This document shows, piece after piece, positions 4,376 through 12,647 of a stretch of DNA of 64,000 nt (the stretch's first letter is position 1; every line of letters begins with the position of its first letter). The DNA comes from Deltaproteobacteria bacterium Ga0077550 (GTDB lineage Bacteria > Myxococcota_A > Polyangia > Nannocystales > Nannocystaceae). The notes below the pieces were generated by a model. It was not told where the DNA came from, ran no database searches, and saw only the letters and a list, made by a program, of their open reading frames with translations. The DNA is taken from NCBI GenBank assembly GCA_001464385.1, contig LNFB01000242.1, positions 62,001 to 126,000 of the forward strand, written 5' to 3'. The position numbers were made by a program, and so were the translations under genes.

Positions 4376-4404
4376 TTGCCCGTCGGGCAGGCGCCGACTA
4401 TCCT
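4376..4404 (+). promoter_or_regulatory. Candidate sigma70-type promoter, leaderless
   Basis: TTGCCC (4376-4381), 17-nt spacer, TATCCT (4399-4404). The ATG of the small membrane protein is only 9 nt beyond the -10, so transcription would start at or next to the start codon. No ribosome binding site could fit. Confidence 0.45.
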
Positions 4405-4413
4405 GTATGCCCG

Positions 4414-4713
4414 ATGGCGAAAGACGACGAGGGTCACGGACTGTCGGTGCTCAAGGGCGCCCTGCTCGCCCTCGGTGCCCTCGCGGCCGTGGGCCTCGGC
4501 CTCAGCCTGGTGAAGGCCCTGTTCATCCCGGTGTTCGTGCTGACGCTCATCGGTGGCGCCGGTTACCTGGGGTACCGCGCCTTCGGCAAGTCGAAGGAGC
4601 TGCAGGCGGGCCGCGAGACCAAGGCGCTGTCGTCCTCGGACTTCGACAAGCGCATGCGTGAGCTCGACGCGCTGGATCGCCAGCTCGACGCCGAGATCCG
4701 CAAGCGGTCCTAG
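4414..4713 (+). CDS. Small single-pass or hairpin membrane protein, unknown function
   Basis: 99-aa protein that I do not recognise. Residues 11-30 (LKGALLALGALAAVGLGL) and 33-52 (ALFIPVFVLTLIGGAGYLGY) form one or two hydrophobic helices; the rest is a charged, helix-prone cytoplasmic tail (SSDFDKRMRELDALDRQLDAEI) that could form a short coiled coil. The ATG at 4414 is preferred because a plausible -10 ends 9 nt upstream and the earlier in-frame sequence is not protein-like. It is divergent from the M16 peptidase gene and convergent with the P-type ATPase gene, so there is no operon context. The reality of the gene rests on third-position GC bias and the membrane pattern. Confidence 0.75.
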   Translation: MAKDDEGHGLSVLKGALLALGALAAVGLGLSLVKALFIPVFVLTLIGGAGYLGYRAFGKSKELQAGRETKALSSSDFDKRMRELDALDRQLDAEIRKRS

Positions 4714-4731
4714 GGCGGCCCCCTCGAGGAT

Positions 4732-4759
4732 CGATCGAACGATCGCGATCGTTCGATCG
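4732..4759. repeat. Perfect 28-bp palindrome between convergent genes
   Basis: The 14-mer CGATCGAACGATCG (4732-4745) is followed immediately by its exact reverse complement CGATCGTTCGATCG (4746-4759). It lies 18 nt after the stop of the small membrane protein gene and 10 nt from the stop of the convergent ATPase gene. As RNA either strand could form a hairpin, so a bidirectional terminator is possible, but there is no U-tract on either side. A protein-binding or cruciform element is an alternative. Confidence 0.6.
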
Positions 4760-4768
4760 CGGACTGGA

Positions 4769-7546
4769 TCAGCGTGCCAACCCGGGTGCCTTCGCCCGCG
4801 CGTAGATCCGCCGCCCGAGCTTCACCACCTCCACGATCGCGACCGGTGCCACCGAGCACGCCGCGATGATCGCCCAGTCCGCAGCGCTGGGCGGCACGGT
4901 GTGCAGCACGCGCTGCAGCAGCGGCACGTACACCGCGGCGATCTGCAGGGCGACGCACACCGCCACCGCGGCCCAGAGCCACGCGTTGGTGAACGGTCGG
5001 TCGAACGCCGAGCGACGCTGCGATCGGGCGTTGAAGGTGTGGAAGACCTGCGCGAAGGCGAGGGTCATGAACGCCATCGTGGTGGCCGCGCCGAGGCCGT
5101 CGCCGGCGGATCCGTGCCACCGCAGGCCGACGACGAACGCGACCAGCGTGACGCCGGCGATCATCGCGCCCTGCCACGCGATGAGGCCCACCATCGCGAA
5201 GCTGACCAGCCGTTGCTTGGGATCGCGGGGCGGCAGGCTCATCGTGCCGGTCGCGGACGGCTCGACCGCCAGCGCCAGCGCCGGGAACACGTCGGTGACG
5301 ATGTTGAGCCACAGGATCTGCAGGGGACCGAGCGGCAGCGGCCAGCCGACCATGATCGCCACGAACACCACGAGGATCTCGGCGGCGTTGCACGAGAACA
5401 GGTAGTGCACGAACTTGAGGATGTTCGCGTAGATGATGCGCCCCTGCTCGACGGCGCGGACGATGGTCGAGAAGTCGTCGTCGGTGATCACCATCGCGGA
5501 CGCCTGCTTGGCCACGTCGGTGCCGCGGCGGCCCATCGCGATGCCGATGTCGGCTTGACCGAGGGCGGGGGCGTCGTTGACCCCGTCGCCGGTCATGGCG
5601 ACCACCTGTGCGTCGCGCTGCAGGGCCTCGACGATCCGCAGCTTCTGCTCCGGCGACACCCTCGCGAACACCGACGTCGTCGCCACGGTGCGCTGCCACG
5701 CCGCCGCGTCGAGGTCGACGAGATCCCGTCCGTGGGCCGCCTGCAGCGGACGCTGCTCGAAGTCCCGATCGATGCCGAGCTGCTTGGCGATCTCGGCGGC
5801 GGTCGCCGGCTGATCGCCGGTGATCATCACGGTGCGGATTCCCGCCCCTCGGCACAGGGCGATCGCGGCCTTGGCGGTGTCGCGCAGCGGGTCCTCCATG
5901 CCGACCAAGCCGACGAAGATCCAGTCGCGCCCGAGGGCGTCGTCGGCGTCGTCGGCGTCGTCGGTGTAGCCCGCGTCGAGGTCGCGGTAGGCGAGGCCGA
6001 GCACGCGCATCGCGGTGCCGGCCAGCTCGGTGTTGCGCGCCAGGTGGCGCTCGCGATCGTCGGCCGTGATCGGCGAGCAGCCCGTCGCCGTGCGCTGCGT
6101 CGTGCTCACCTCGAGGACCGCGCCCGGGGAGCCCTTCATGTACGCGACGAGCTGCCCCTTCGGCGTCGTGTGCACCGTGATCATGCGCTTGGTCTCGCTG
6201 TCGAACGCGCGCTCGGCCACGCGAGGCCAGTCGCGATCGAGCGCGGCGTGCTCGATGCCCGCCTTCTCGGCGACGACCGTGAGGGCGGCCTCGGTCGGAT
6301 CGCCCAGGACCTTGTCGCCGTCGTCGGTGCGCTCGAGGGTCGCGTCGTTGCACAGCGCGCCGATGCGCAGGGCGAGGACCAGCGACTCGCGCTCGCCGGG
6401 CACGATCCGTCGGTCGCCCTCGCGGAACTCGCCGACGCGCGCGTAGCCGGTGCCGGTGACGTCGATCCGCAGGTCGTCGACGACGAGCGCGCGGACCGTC
6501 ATCTGGTTCTCGGTGAGCGTGCCCGTCTTGTCGGTGCAGATGACCGTGGTCGATCCCAGGGTCTCGACCGCGGGCAGCCGGCGGATGAGCGCGCCCATCC
6601 TGGCCATGCGCTGCATGCCGAGCGCGAGCGTCATCGTCGACACCGCGAGCAGGCCCTCCGGCATCGCGGCGATCGCCAGCGAGACGCCGACCTCGAGCAT
6701 GTGCAGGAACCCGTGGCCGCGCAGCCACCCCGCGCCCACGACGACCGCCCCGAGCAGGAGCACGACGCCGACCATCCCGTTGCCGAGCCGCGTGAGCTTC
6801 TTCTCCAGCGGGGTGGCGCGCGCGGTCGCGTCGGCGACCATCGTGCCGATCTTGCCCAGCTCGGTGTGGGCGCCGGTGGCCGTCACCAGGACGCGACCGC
6901 GACCCTCGGTGATCGCGGTGCCGAGGTAGGCCATGTCGACGCGATCGCCGAGGGCGGCGGCGGCGTCCGTCACCGCGTCGGTCTGCTTGGGCACCGTGCG
7001 CGACTCGCCGGTGAGCGCGGCCTCCTCGACCTGCAGCTGCGCGCTCTCGATGATGCGACCGTCGGCGGGGACGCGGGCGCCCGCGGCGAGGATGAGCACG
7101 TCGCCGGGCACGATGTCGGCCGCCGCGATCTCGCGCTCGGCCCCGCCGCGCAGCACCTGCGCCATGGGCACGGCGTCGTCGCGCAACGCCGACAAGGTCC
7201 GCTCGGCCTTCCACTCGATGAGGAAGCCGATGGCCGCGTTGAGGACGATGACGACGAGGATCGCGATCGCCTCCGCGAGGTCGCCCAGGGCGAAGGCGAC
7301 GCCGGCCGCCGCGAGCAGCAGCACGACGATGATGCTCTTGAACTGGTGCAGGAGGATCGCGAACGGCGAGCGTCCGCGGGCCGCCGCGAGGACGTTGTGT
7401 CCGTGCTGCTCGAGTCGCGTGACGACCTGCGCGTCGGAGAGCCCGCGCTCGAGATCGGCGTCGAGCTGCGAGCAGGCCGCGTCGATGGCGAGCGTGTGCC
7501 AGGCAGTCGGGCTCGGCGGTGCGGTGGACGGCGTGGCGGCGGTCAT
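4769..7546 (-). CDS. P-type cation-transporting ATPase (P2-type, calcium-pump-like)
   Basis: 925-aa P-type ATPase, full length. It has the N-terminal cation-ATPase domain, the actuator motif TGES (179-182), the M4 ion-site motif PEGL (296-299, as in P2A calcium pumps), the phosphorylation motif DKTGTLTENQ (Asp339), GDGVNDAPALGQAD in the hinge, and the C-terminal transmembrane bundle. Motif PEGL favours Ca2+ or a related cation rather than a heavy metal, and there is no N-terminal CxxC metal-binding domain. One loop carries an Asp/Ala repeat (TDDADDADDALG) encoded by a 9-nt tandem repeat around 5936-5965. Transcribed alone; the exact ion is uncertain. Confidence 0.95.
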   Translation of the reverse strand: MTAATPSTAPPSPTAWHTLAIDAACSQLDADLERGLSDAQVVTRLEQHGHNVLAAARGRSPFAILLHQFKSIIVVLLLAAAGVAFALGDLAEAIAILVVIVLNAAIGFLIEWKAERTLSALRDDAVPMAQVLRGGAEREIAAADIVPGDVLILAAGARVPADGRIIESAQLQVEEAALTGESRTVPKQTDAVTDAAAALGDRVDMAYLGTAITEGRGRVLVTATGAHTELGKIGTMVADATARATPLEKKLTRLGNGMVGVVLLLGAVVVGAGWLRGHGFLHMLEVGVSLAIAAMPEGLLAVSTMTLALGMQRMARMGALIRRLPAVETLGSTTVICTDKTGTLTENQMTVRALVVDDLRIDVTGTGYARVGEFREGDRRIVPGERESLVLALRIGALCNDATLERTDDGDKVLGDPTEAALTVVAEKAGIEHAALDRDWPRVAERAFDSETKRMITVHTTPKGQLVAYMKGSPGAVLEVSTTQRTATGCSPITADDRERHLARNTELAGTAMRVLGLAYRDLDAGYTDDADDADDALGRDWIFVGLVGMEDPLRDTAKAAIALCRGAGIRTVMITGDQPATAAEIAKQLGIDRDFEQRPLQAAHGRDLVDLDAAAWQRTVATTSVFARVSPEQKLRIVEALQRDAQVVAMTGDGVNDAPALGQADIGIAMGRRGTDVAKQASAMVITDDDFSTIVRAVEQGRIIYANILKFVHYLFSCNAAEILVVFVAIMVGWPLPLGPLQILWLNIVTDVFPALALAVEPSATGTMSLPPRDPKQRLVSFAMVGLIAWQGAMIAGVTLVAFVVGLRWHGSAGDGLGAATTMAFMTLAFAQVFHTFNARSQRRSAFDRPFTNAWLWAAVAVCVALQIAAVYVPLLQRVLHTVPPSAADWAIIAACSVAPVAIVEVVKLGRRIYARAKAPGLAR

Positions 7547-9504: not shown

Positions 9505-10632
9505 TCACGACGTGGCGATCGCGTCGATCACCGCGTCGCACTCGTCCTCGCGGTGCGCCGGGTGGGGCGCGACGCGGATCCCGTGGCCCTCGCGCGCGTC
9601 GACGTCGAACCCCGCGGCCGCGAGCACTGCCACGACGCGCGCGGCGTCGGCGTGTTCGATGCACACGTGTCCCCCGCGCCGCGCGTCGTCGACCGGCGCG
9701 CGCACGCGCAGCCCCGCGGCCTGGGCCCGCTCGATCATCCGCGCCGTGAGGGCGACGCTGCGCGCTCGCAGGGCGTCGACGCCGAACTCGGCGACCAGGG
9801 CGAGGCCTGCTCGCGCGGCGAACACCGGTGCCATCGCCACCGGCGACTGGGCGAAGCGGGCCGCACCGGCCGCGGGGACGAACCGCGGCGCGATCGACTG
9901 CGGATCGACGTGGCCCATCCACCCCGGGAACGCGGGGACCATGCGCTGGGCGAGCTCGGGCCGCACGTACGCGAACGCGAGCCCGAAGTCGCCGCCGCCG
10001 AGCCACTTGTGCGAGCAGCCGACCAGCACGTCGACGCCGCTGTCGACGACGTCGACGGGGACGATGCCCACCGACTGACACGCGTCGGCGACGACGATCG
10101 CCCCGGCTGCGTGGGCATCGCGGACCAGCGCCGCGAGCGGCAGCATCGCGCCGGTGAAGGACGAGACGTGCGCGACCGCGACCGCCGCGGTCTCGCCGGG
10201 TCGCAGCGCGGCCGCGATCCGCTCGGGTTCGACGCCACCGTCGGCGGACGCCTCGAGCACCTCGACCTCGAAGCCGCGCGCCGCCTGGGCGGACCACAGG
10301 TAGCGACTCGAGTGGAAGTCGGTCGCGCAGGTCACGATGTGGCGCCGTCGCCCCGGCTGCATCACCGCTGCGATCGCGGCCTGGGCGACGGTGGCCCCCG
10401 GCAGCAGCGCGACGCTGCCGGTCGGGGCCCGGAGCAGGGCCTCGACGCCGGTGGTGACGGCGTGCAGGCGCTCGAACCACTGTCCGAAGGCGTTGCGCCC
10501 GTGGCGAAGCGAGCGTTGCCACGCGTCGAGATCGGCCAGCGCCGCCTCGGGCAAGGCCCCCAACGAGTGGCTCGCGAAGTAGTGGCGCGTCGACAGCAGG
10601 GGCAGACGCGCGCGGAGCTCTGCGGGTGTCAT
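9505..10632 (-). CDS. Kynureninase-like PLP-dependent enzyme (class V aminotransferase fold)
   Basis: 375-aa fold-type I PLP enzyme. Visible features are a substrate-proximal N-terminus (YFASHSLGALP), the PLP-ring aspartate in VADACQSVG (Asp183), and the Schiff-base lysine in GCSHKWLGGG (Lys209), a pattern closest to kynureninase and cysteine-desulfurase-like members of aminotransferase class V. The ATG at 10632 overlaps the stop codon of the upstream prenyltransferase-oxidase gene by four bases (ATGA), so the two are translationally coupled and very probably act in one pathway. Plausible reactions are beta-elimination or retro-aldol/hydrolytic C-C cleavage of a modified aromatic amino acid; this is inference from the neighbour. 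C-S lyase or epimerase activity is an alternative. Confidence 0.85.
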   Translation of the reverse strand: MTPAELRARLPLLSTRHYFASHSLGALPEAALADLDAWQRSLRHGRNAFGQWFERLHAVTTGVEALLRAPTGSVALLPGATVAQAAIAAVMQPGRRRHIVTCATDFHSSRYLWSAQAARGFEVEVLEASADGGVEPERIAAALRPGETAAVAVAHVSSFTGAMLPLAALVRDAHAAGAIVVADACQSVGIVPVDVVDSGVDVLVGCSHKWLGGGDFGLAFAYVRPELAQRMVPAFPGWMGHVDPQSIAPRFVPAAGAARFAQSPVAMAPVFAARAGLALVAEFGVDALRARSVALTARMIERAQAAGLRVRAPVDDARRGGHVCIEHADAARVVAVLAAAGFDVDAREGHGIRVAPHPAHREDECDAVIDAIATS

Positions 10633-12485
10633 CGGTCGAAGCACACTCGGTCGAAACACAGTGGATACAGCTCGTCGAGGAGCACCCAGAGGGCGATCGC
10701 ACCGACCCGGGCGCCGCGCCACATCGCTGCGTGCACGGCCGGATCGTCGGGCACGTACGCCATGATCGACGCGGAGTCCTGGGCGTGGCTCTGCTCGAGC
10801 TCGTCGTGCAGGAAGGCCCAGCCCAGCGCGCTGTGGGGCACGGATTGCTGGCGACGGAACACCCGCGCGATGACGGCGTCGGTCTGCGACGCGAGGACCT
10901 CGGTGAGCGCGGCCATGCCCACGCCCGCCCAGGGATCGTCGGACAGGAACATCGGCTCGACCGCGGCGGCGAAGCGCCGCGCCGGGGCCAGCGCGTCGAC
11001 GTCGGCGGAGAGCGGCGTGGCCTCGGCCTCGACGGCGGCGAACATGCGCTCGAACATGTGCACGTGGGCCTGCTCGGGATGACCGTGGCCGAGCTCGTCG
11101 TCGAGCTGGTGGGCGAGGATCGAGCGCACCGCGACGTCGGGCACCCGCGCGATGAGCCCGGCGAGCCACTGCGTGAAGCGGTGGGCGATGCCGGCGCGCA
11201 TGTTGAGCGCGAGGCGGTGCATCGCGTTCACCACGTCGTCGGTCTGCTCGAGCCGGCGGAAGAACGGGTGGTTGCGCAGGTCGATCGCGTCGGCGAACGC
11301 GATGATCTCCGCGGCGGGCTGCGGCTCGATCGACGCCGCGCCGCGGCCCTCGGGCGGGCGTGGGCACGCGACACGGCACGCCTCGCTGCCGACGTAGATC
11401 GTGCAGCTCGGCGCCGCGCTCGCCTTGAGCGAGGCGTAGCTCTGCAGGCCGACGCCGGCCCCGAGCGCGCGGTGGGCCACCGCGTCCACCGCCTCGCGGT
11501 AGCGGCCGGTGTCGATGCCACACTCGCCGAGCAGTTCCTCGATCCGATCGCGGGCCTCGACGTCGTCGCGCACGTACGCGCGCACCGGGAAGTGGGCCGT
11601 CACCGAGGTCGGCCGATCGCGGCCGGCCACGAACGAAAGGCAGGTGCTCACCGGCAGGTCGTCGAACGGGCCGTCGCCGCCGCCGATCGTGCGGCACAGC
11701 GTGCGGGCGCGGCCGGGCGCGGTGTCGGTGGCCAGGGCGAAGACCCGCTCGAGCTCGTCGGCGGTCGCGTGCTCGTGGGCGAAGTAGACCTTGACCCGCG
11801 CCGCCGCGCTGCGATCGAGGTCGATCGAGAAGTAGCGGATCTCGTCGACGTCATGGCCGCGGTGGCTCGCCTCGAGCACCGACGCGAACGCCGAGCGCAG
11901 GCCGAGGGCGGCGAACGCCTGCTCGACGACCGCGCTGGCGTGGTAGCGGCCGTGGATCTGCGGGTTGAGGTAGACCTTGAACAGCGGCTTGCCGCCCGCA
12001 GCGGCGGCAGGAGCACCGTCGCCGAAGCCGACGCCGTGCCACAGGCCGAAGGTGCCGTCGCCGTCGCGCGGCAGGAACAGCTCGCGGATCCGCTCGAGCG
12101 CATCGACCTCGGCGCCCCACGGGATCAATCGTGCGGTGAGGTCGAGGCCCGCGGCGACGTTCGACGCCCAGGTGGGCTCGCGGCCCTGTGCCTCGACGAT
12201 GAGTCGCGGCTGCACCGTGCCGCCGGCGTAGGCGACCGAGAGCTCCCATGGGGTGCCGTCGTCGGAGATCTGCGAGCGCCACCGCGGGTCGGCGGCGATC
12301 GGCTGGTCGCCCCAGCCCGCGAACATCGCGTCGACGATCTCGGTGACCGCGAGCGGGCATGCGGAGCGCCGGAGCGCGCGCCAGAACGCCGCGAAGTCGC
12401 GCAGGCCGAGCTCGGCCCAGGTGCGCGCCCCGTGGGCCACATGCGCGGTGTCGAAGCGGGGGAGCGAGGGTGGACGCATCAGCAT
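10629..12485 (-). CDS. Fusion: DMATS-type aromatic prenyltransferase + haem-oxygenase-like diiron oxidase (HDO)
   Basis: 618-aa two-domain enzyme. Residues 1-365 match the ABBA/DMATS prenyltransferase pattern: ISDDGTPWELS with the indole-NH-binding Glu81; FKVYLNP (Lys170, Tyr172) and ARVKVYF (Arg230, Lys232, Tyr234) for the diphosphate and tyrosine shield; SVTAHFPVRAY (Tyr304); and GLQSYASL (Tyr350). Residues 395-618 form an all-helical HDO domain with ligand-like motifs DDELGHGHPEQAHVHMF (464-477) and HDELEQSH (560-567). DMATS enzymes prenylate tryptophan, tyrosine or indoles; HDO enzymes use O2 to oxidise or fragment amino or fatty acids. The fusion suggests sequential action on one substrate. 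It overlaps the PLP-enzyme gene by 4 nt. Alternative start at 12479. I know of no described fusion of these two families. Confidence 0.82.
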   Translation of the reverse strand: MLMRPPSLPRFDTAHVAHGARTWAELGLRDFAAFWRALRRSACPLAVTEIVDAMFAGWGDQPIAADPRWRSQISDDGTPWELSVAYAGGTVQPRLIVEAQGREPTWASNVAAGLDLTARLIPWGAEVDALERIRELFLPRDGDGTFGLWHGVGFGDGAPAAAAGGKPLFKVYLNPQIHGRYHASAVVEQAFAALGLRSAFASVLEASHRGHDVDEIRYFSIDLDRSAAARVKVYFAHEHATADELERVFALATDTAPGRARTLCRTIGGGDGPFDDLPVSTCLSFVAGRDRPTSVTAHFPVRAYVRDDVEARDRIEELLGECGIDTGRYREAVDAVAHRALGAGVGLQSYASLKASAAPSCTIYVGSEACRVACPRPPEGRGAASIEPQPAAEIIAFADAIDLRNHPFFRRLEQTDDVVNAMHRLALNMRAGIAHRFTQWLAGLIARVPDVAVRSILAHQLDDELGHGHPEQAHVHMFERMFAAVEAEATPLSADVDALAPARRFAAAVEPMFLSDDPWAGVGMAALTEVLASQTDAVIARVFRRQQSVPHSALGWAFLHDELEQSHAQDSASIMAYVPDDPAVHAAMWRGARVGAIALWVLLDELYPLCFDRVCFDR

Positions 12486-12550: not shown

Positions 12551-12584
12551 GTGCCTGGCACACGTGCCAGCGCGTGCCAGGCAC
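12551..12584. promoter_or_regulatory. Paired palindromes GTGCC(T/A)GGCAC between divergent genes
   Basis: GTGCCTGGCAC (12551-12561) and GTGCCAGGCAC (12574-12584) are exact reverse complements of each other, each is nearly self-palindromic, and their centres are 23 bp apart (about two helical turns). Further TGCCA half-sites lie between and after them. The pair sits in the 162-bp intergenic region between the prenyltransferase-oxidase gene (minus) and the 352-aa secreted protein gene (plus), the expected place for an operator controlling one or both. A dispersed REP-like repeat is the main alternative. Confidence 0.5.
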
Positions 12585-12647
12585 GTGCCGGCCCCGGTCA
12601 CATCGGCCCGCGGCCGCGACTCGGTCGGCGCGAGGCCGCCGAACTCC

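Follow-up and report, generated by a model that had tools for sequence, protein, structure and literature searches.

The window analysed here, a 64,000-nt stretch of contig LNFB01000242.1 from Deltaproteobacteria bacterium Ga0077550, carries on its minus strand a cassette that appears to be a route to prenylated aromatics not yet described. One gene encodes a fusion of a dimethylallyltryptophan synthase (DMATS) prenyltransferase with a haem-oxygenase-like dimetal oxidase (HDO), and its stop codon overlaps the start codon of a gene for a kynureninase-like pyridoxal phosphate (PLP) enzyme by 4 nt. An earlier note on this DNA had described the 618-residue fusion and the overlap, and had proposed a compact cassette of three activities acting on an aromatic amino acid; the fusion and the overlap were confirmed, and the idea of the cassette holds. 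The explanation that we favor as a whole, with slightly less than even confidence, is that the three activities of the cassette together prenylate tryptophan and then degrade it.

Hidden Markov model (HMM) searches placed each half of the fusion above its Pfam-A cut-off. Residues 60–326 match Trp_DMAT (PF11991; E 7.8e-13, 48.9 bits vs gathering cut-off 25). The NCBIfam TIGR03429 cut-off was not reached (91.3 bits vs 163.85, E 8e-26), nor was it by three other myxobacterial DMATS scanned, so this cut-off is a limit of a subfamily rather than of fold or chemistry. AlphaFold2, using an 8-row alignment of fusion proteins, predicted two confident domains and a low-confidence linker at residues 371–390, with a mean pLDDT (per-residue model confidence) of 81. 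The DMATS half has the ABBA fold and superposes on the 6-dimethylallyltryptophan synthase (6-DMATS) 6zrx over 353 residues at 2.6 Å (VIA-align, Z 44.2), with a phmmer E of 3e-48 to the same protein. Its top PDB matches by sequence and fold were all tryptophan or indole prenyltransferases, namely 6zrx, IptA, the 5-DMATS of Streptomyces coelicolor, PriB, and TleC. The indole-binding Glu81 and the K-x-Y and R-x-K-x-Y motifs, reported earlier as intact, are present as E81, K170/Y172, and R230/K232/Y234. These residues and R94 (E81 for the indole, the others for the diphosphate or the tyrosine shield) are invariant across eight distant fusions that share 32–36% identity with the window protein (alignment A3). 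Prenylation of tryptophan by the DMATS half is a well supported prediction.

The second half matches Haem_oxygenas_2 (PF14518) at residues 427–595 (E 1.8e-18, 67.4 bits vs cut-off 28.9). Modelled alone, it reached a pLDDT of 91.5 and adopted the seven-helix haem-oxygenase-like fold. Its best fold match was the dimetal N-oxygenase HrmI (VIA-align, Z 24.0, 219 residues, 2.4 Å), and further matches were CADD (Z 22.5), FlcD (19.5), BesC (19.1), PolF (18.8), and AetD (16.6); the substrates of most of these HDOs are amino acids or compounds derived from them. CADD-like self-sacrificing synthesis of p-aminobenzoate (pABA) was considered and dropped, because fold similarity was its sole support. The E/H ligand motifs of the earlier description correspond to six predicted iron ligands, E464, H474, E529, H560, E564, and H567, which were kept in 10 of 10 aligned fusions with 29–37% identity to the window HDO. 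This set of three His and three carboxylates is the one commonly described for HDOs (PMC13108848), and a dimetal site is predicted here. The first-helix motif is of the E-x9-H form, DELGHGHPEQAH, and matches that of HrmI, DEMGNGKPAEVH, whereas the first helix of AetD has a compact D-x2-H (PMC11611611). The profile of the window-type HDO (A5) matched BesC, 4-aminobenzoate synthase, CADD, and HrmI; AetD was absent among its matches. Lacking the D-x2-H motif as well, the window HDO falls outside the AetD/SktA subfamily and belongs to a different one. Searching 290 genomes with the HDO half as a single sequence retrieved only itself at 1e-5, which means that the single sequence is too isolated.

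The PLP enzyme matches Aminotran_5 (Pfam-A, E 7.9e-33) and scores 55.3 bits against the kynureninase C-terminal domain PF22580 (gathering score 27, E 6.6e-15), and the best PDB match of its profile is the kynureninase 1qz9 (E 8e-56). Its R353 aligns with the Arg of IMRFGF in 1qz9; the C-terminal Arg of kynureninase binds the substrate carboxylate. The label 'kynureninase-like' given to it earlier is justified to this extent, but it is not a textbook kynureninase: it remains far from the cut-off of the NCBIfam kynureninase model TIGR01814 (106.4 bits vs 246.4) and has S-H-K-W around the PLP lysine, where a Tyr precedes the lysine in 1qz9, and D-A-C-Q in place of the D-x-x-H of 1qz9. Replacements of the same kind run through the wider myxobacterial PLP family (family search, 360 genomes), including members that adjoin a tryptophan-2,3-dioxygenase (TDO)-like gene. 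Seven family members outside the cassettes have such a neighbor (PF03301, E 4e-28), with start-stop contact in locus L113 (L and G numbers denote loci and genomes). The ten cassette enzymes form one clade (SH-aLRT branch support 99), flanked on either side by TDO-adjacent relatives, and the family is probably a divergent kynureninase family. Because the family adjoins TDO-like genes, a kynurenine-type substrate is likelier for the cassette enzyme. The fused HDO occupies in the cassette the place held by TDO in the relatives' loci. Pairs of a kynureninase-like PLP gene and a TDO-like gene were seen at L113:5864-7749, where the TDO-like protein is short (242 aa), and in L086, L088, L090, L099, L101, L108, and L110; they seem to form a kynurenine operon of an unusual kind in myxobacteria, with a PLP enzyme that scores under the NCBIfam cut-off for kynureninase.

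The features of the cassette are listed below.

Features of the cassette in the window (positions are those of the 64,000-nt stretch).
Feature	Position	Strand	Basis
Fusion gene, DMATS prenyltransferase + HDO, 618 aa	10629..12485	minus	Open frame without internal stop; Pfam, AlphaFold2, fold and sequence matches
DMATS (ABBA-fold) half, residues 19-376	11358..12431	minus	PF11991, phmmer, VIA, key residues
Linker, residues 371-390	11316..11375	minus	AlphaFold2 pLDDT <50
HDO half, residues 388-612, seven-helix haem-oxygenase-like bundle	10650..11324	minus	PF14518, domain model, VIA
Predicted iron ligand E464	11094..11096	minus	Invariant
Predicted iron ligand H474	11064..11066	minus	Invariant
Predicted iron ligand E529	10899..10901	minus	Invariant
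Predicted iron ligand H560 (of HxxxExxH)	10806..10808	minus	Invariant
Predicted iron ligand E564	10794..10796	minus	Invariant
Predicted iron ligand H567	10785..10787	minus	Invariant
ATGA, stop/start overlap of 4 nt	10629..10632	minus	Fusion TGA 10631-10629, PLP-gene ATG 10632-10630
Kynureninase-like PLP enzyme (aminotransferase class V), 375 aa; D183, PLP lysine K209, W238, R353	9505..10632	minus	Pfam, NCBIfam, alignment

The nested palindromes GGCACGTGCC and CTGGCACGTGTGCCAG, a possible operator, lie at 12555-12589 of the window, roughly 70–105 bp upstream of where the fusion gene begins.

Joining of two genes by a sequencing or assembly error, which the earlier note had raised against itself, or by chance was ruled out, as the neighborhood search gave independent assemblies with the same fusion and PLP neighbor. 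PF11991 found a match in 13 of 379 Myxococcota genomes, and a search with the fusion profile added a fusion in G106. Three DMATS loci are present in the source genome (10.2 Mb). Besides the one in the window, there is another fusion on a different contig and a stand-alone DMATS gene with a separate HDO and a flavin adenine dinucleotide (FAD) oxidase after it. In a scan of named genomes, a single-protein query gave nothing, and an alignment-based query found the fusion in Polyangium sp. 6x1, Polyangium sp. 15x6, a Polyangiaceae, and metagenome-assembled genomes (MAGs) assigned to Myxococcales, Polyangia, Deltaproteobacteria, and the cyanobacterium Chamaesiphon, as well as a piece of it at a contig edge in a Sandaracinaceae MAG.

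All loci were classified by HMM annotation, with the near-identical records L034/L049 and L043/L050 counted once. In type A, DMATS and an intact window-type HDO form one protein (12 loci, in Myxococcota and one cyanobacterial MAG). The PLP gene comes directly next in 11 of these 12 fusions compared with 0 of 14 other DMATS loci (Fisher p 1.6e-6, a value that overstates independence because the loci are related by descent); among DMATS loci, it is associated only with the window HDO subfamily. The junction between fusion and PLP gene is RTGA or similarly tight in most type A loci, mostly with an overlap of 1–4 nt, and an O-methyltransferase gene follows in five of them (L040, L047, L048, L049, L052). 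Type B combines DMATS with an AetD-family HDO and a FAD oxidase, either as separate genes (L013, L015, L016, L019, L020) or with the first two joined in one protein (L035, L042). In type C (L037, L039, L052a), DMATS carries a ligand-less HDO tail derived from type A, accompanied by a separate intact AetD-family HDO and a FAD oxidase, and type D (L038, L018) consists of DMATS, tryptophanase, and a FAD oxidase, with a dead HDO tail also in L038. The profile of the type B/C HDOs (A6) matches AetD at E 9e-36. Since tryptophanase stands in at the two loci where an intact HDO was not found, the second step in types B–D is probably removal or conversion of the tryptophan side chain.

The DMATS tree has a weak backbone, and because most of its deep forks are open, the count of fusion events involving HDOs of type A cannot be fixed. 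In this tree the AetD-type fusion (L035 and L042, support 94/92) appears reasonably distinct as a fusion separate from type A. The earlier note had known of no described fusion of these families. No description of a DMATS-HDO fusion, of the cassette, or of a prenylated anthranilate made with a kynureninase was found in the open literature searched, with subscription papers mostly outside its scope, but the fusion is not unique, given the 12 intact fusions and the separate one with an AetD-family HDO.

Some other genes recur near DMATS. A small protein family of 134–176 aa, whose tested members had no Pfam match, is present in loci of the FAD-oxidase type (L037:7235-7711, L039:10592-11068, L035:6711-7238, L042:264-752 and 4401-4925, L052:4400-4879, L019:8396-8869, L038:8684-9085), the L019 and L038 proteins forming a looser subgroup. 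A conserved protein of about 176 aa (MEFVSPDP...) lies near stand-alone DMATS genes in the window's family (L013:11692-12222, L015:521-1111, L020:4012-4548); the L015 copy had no Pfam match. Response regulators or hybrid histidine kinases are found near many DMATS loci (L046, L048, L049, L051, L052, L037, L039), which suggests that these loci are under signal-controlled expression.

The type C loci may account for a known natural product. The Sandaracinus genomes G226 and G390 each have exactly one DMATS, located with an intact AetD-type HDO, and tryptophanase was searched for in both and not found. The loci concerned (L037:4913-11406 in G226, L039:6904-13456 in G390) contain the DMATS with its ligand-less HDO tail and the separate AetD-family HDO, and also a cytokinin-dehydrogenase-like FAD oxidase with a twin-arginine translocation (TAT) signal, a cytochrome P450 (P450), a major facilitator superfamily (MFS) transporter, and two-component genes; no halogenase was noticed in the type C locus. 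Indiacens are made by S. defensii and S. amylolyticus (PMC9306752), and indiacen B, whose total synthesis started from 4-iodoindole, is a 4-substituted indole that is unsubstituted at C3 (PMC4660955, PMC9306752). With a sole DMATS, no tryptophanase, an indiacen-making genus, and a product bare at C3, the type C locus is likely the indiacen biosynthetic locus. No description of indiacen biosynthesis was found in the same open literature. A further locus, on plasmid4 of Calothrix sp. NIES-4101 (L115:5893-9705, AP018277.1), contains DMATS BAZ36825.1, the unannotated AetD-type HDO BAZ36824.1 (E 7e-48), an adjacent flavin-dependent monooxygenase (FMO) gene, and then a short-chain dehydrogenase/reductase (SDR) gene; it may be a cyanobacterial prenyl-tryptophan locus.

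For the window cassette, we propose that the DMATS half would transfer dimethylallyl from dimethylallyl diphosphate (DMAPP) onto the indole ring of L-tryptophan, as its family and fold suggest. The tethered HDO half, with its fold and ligand set, would then oxidize the prenyl-tryptophan with O2. The chemistry we favor is opening of the indole C2-C3 bond to give prenyl-(formyl)kynurenine, because family members of the partner PLP enzyme adjoin TDO elsewhere. The PLP enzyme, in view of its family and coupling, would release alanine and leave an anthranilate-type product that bears the prenyl group; in the five related loci, an O-methyltransferase may modify this product further. Fusion and overlap would fix the enzyme ratio and permit hand-over of a hydrophobic intermediate. 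We consider it quite probable that prenyl-tryptophan is oxidized by the HDO and then processed by the PLP enzyme, and we have moderate confidence that the HDO acts on a prenylated amino acid. Ring opening to prenyl-kynurenine followed by alanine release is a tentative proposal. More doubtful is the full version, in which the HDO half, as a non-haem dimetal oxygenase, would replace the haem-dependent TDO in opening the indole ring, here that of prenyl-tryptophan, within a polypeptide that also makes prenyl-tryptophan, and would feed a coupled kynureninase-type enzyme toward prenylated anthranilates. The 'oxidatively cleaved product' of the earlier note is possible, but it is just one among several HDO outcomes that the sequence would allow.

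Several points weigh against the proposed scheme. The HDOs known to act on tryptophan, AetD and SktA, target its side chain (PMC13108848). The cassette showed no formamidase gene, and in Chamaesiphon no PLP gene lies within 6 kb of the fusion. The cassette PLP enzymes have His or Val where 1qz9 has the Tyr ahead of the PLP lysine, and they lack its Asp-x-x-His, with Gln instead; the TDO-adjacent relatives lack both features as well. The source genome has a separate TDO, and the ordinary kynurenine route may run in parallel. Moreover, we know of no HDO that cleaves an indole ring.

Side-chain excision would bring the cassette closer to its sister loci: the HDO half, acting like AetD or SktA on prenyl-tryptophan, would cut the alanyl side chain and so yield a prenyl-indole nitrile, skatole, or indole, and the PLP enzyme would work on a side product or an alternative substrate. 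The pairing of sister DMATS with stand-alone or fused HDOs of the AetD-matching profile, the tryptophanase partner in L038 and L018, the two Sandaracinus genomes with their indiacens, and the Calothrix plasmid all count in favor of this reading. We nevertheless judge it rather unlikely for the window, whose HDO has the E-x9-H of HrmI, resembles AetD only at Z 16.6, and is of the one subfamily that the PLP gene accompanies. The likeness to HrmI, a lysine N-oxygenase, raises another possibility, namely that the HDO half hydroxylates the alpha-amine of prenyl-tryptophan to an oxime or nitro compound. DMATS with an N-oxygenase has a direct precedent in Streptomyces, where the FMO SCO7468, whose place the HDO half would take, makes 5-dimethylallylindole-3-acetaldoxime (PMC3617294). 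The coupled PLP enzyme, however, could not bind an N-oxygenated amino acid as the usual aldimine, and fold likeness does not fix the reaction, given that the self-sacrificing pABA synthase CADD scores nearly as high; this outcome seems improbable.

DMATS enzymes have a broad acceptor range, and gene order does not prove reaction order. The DMATS half might thus take tyrosine, an indole, kynurenine, or anthranilate, or the PLP enzyme might act first and the fusion on its product. This we consider quite improbable, as the closest characterized relatives all use tryptophan or tryptophan-derived indoles and the window protein retains E81 along with the other residues conserved in DMATS. Finally, the prenyltransferase alone might matter, the fusion being fortuitous or the HDO half structural. 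The tails of types C and D (L037, L039, L038, L052a) have lost their ligands yet are retained, and a structural role is possible there, but those loci have a separate intact HDO or a tryptophanase, and all ligands are kept in the ten type A tails examined, which makes this very improbable for the window.

These loci show that pairing tryptophan prenyltransferases with dimetal oxidases is a strategy that recurs in bacteria, the two apparently having been fused at least twice. The cassette offers a single-chain, testable system for two-step tryptophan functionalization and may extend the dozen or so known HDO activities by a further one, the opening of the ring in prenyl-tryptophan, and the survey predicts genes for the indiacens, which are myxobacterial antibiotics.

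Both halves belong to known families, and a DMATS with a second tryptophan-modifying enzyme is already known in Streptomyces; it is the fusion and the cassette for which no description was found. As in the SCO7467/SCO7468 and IptA/tryptophanase clusters of actinomycetes, DMATS would act first on L-tryptophan and a second enzyme would follow, there altering the side chain (PMC3617294); those clusters, however, consist of separate genes with FMO or tryptophanase as the partner, and have no HDO, fusion, or kynureninase-type PLP enzyme. With AetD and SktA, HDOs that act on bromotryptophans (PMC11611611, PMC13108848), the window HDO shares the fold, a predicted 3-His/3-carboxylate dimetal site, and an expected tryptophan-type substrate, whereas it is of another subfamily, is fused, and would use a prenylated rather than brominated substrate. 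The N-oxygenase HrmI is closest in fold and first-helix motif, and SznF likewise joins an HDO domain to another catalytic domain, a cupin; these enzymes act on lysine or arginine without a prenyltransferase, and SznF has a 3-His/4-carboxylate site. The PLP enzyme has kynureninase (Pseudomonas 1qz9, human 3e9k) as its closest PDB relative, with the PLP lysine, the Trp of GW(F/M)GH, and the C-terminal Arg aligned, but differs in falling below the NCBIfam cut-off and in the replaced Tyr and Asp-x-x-His.

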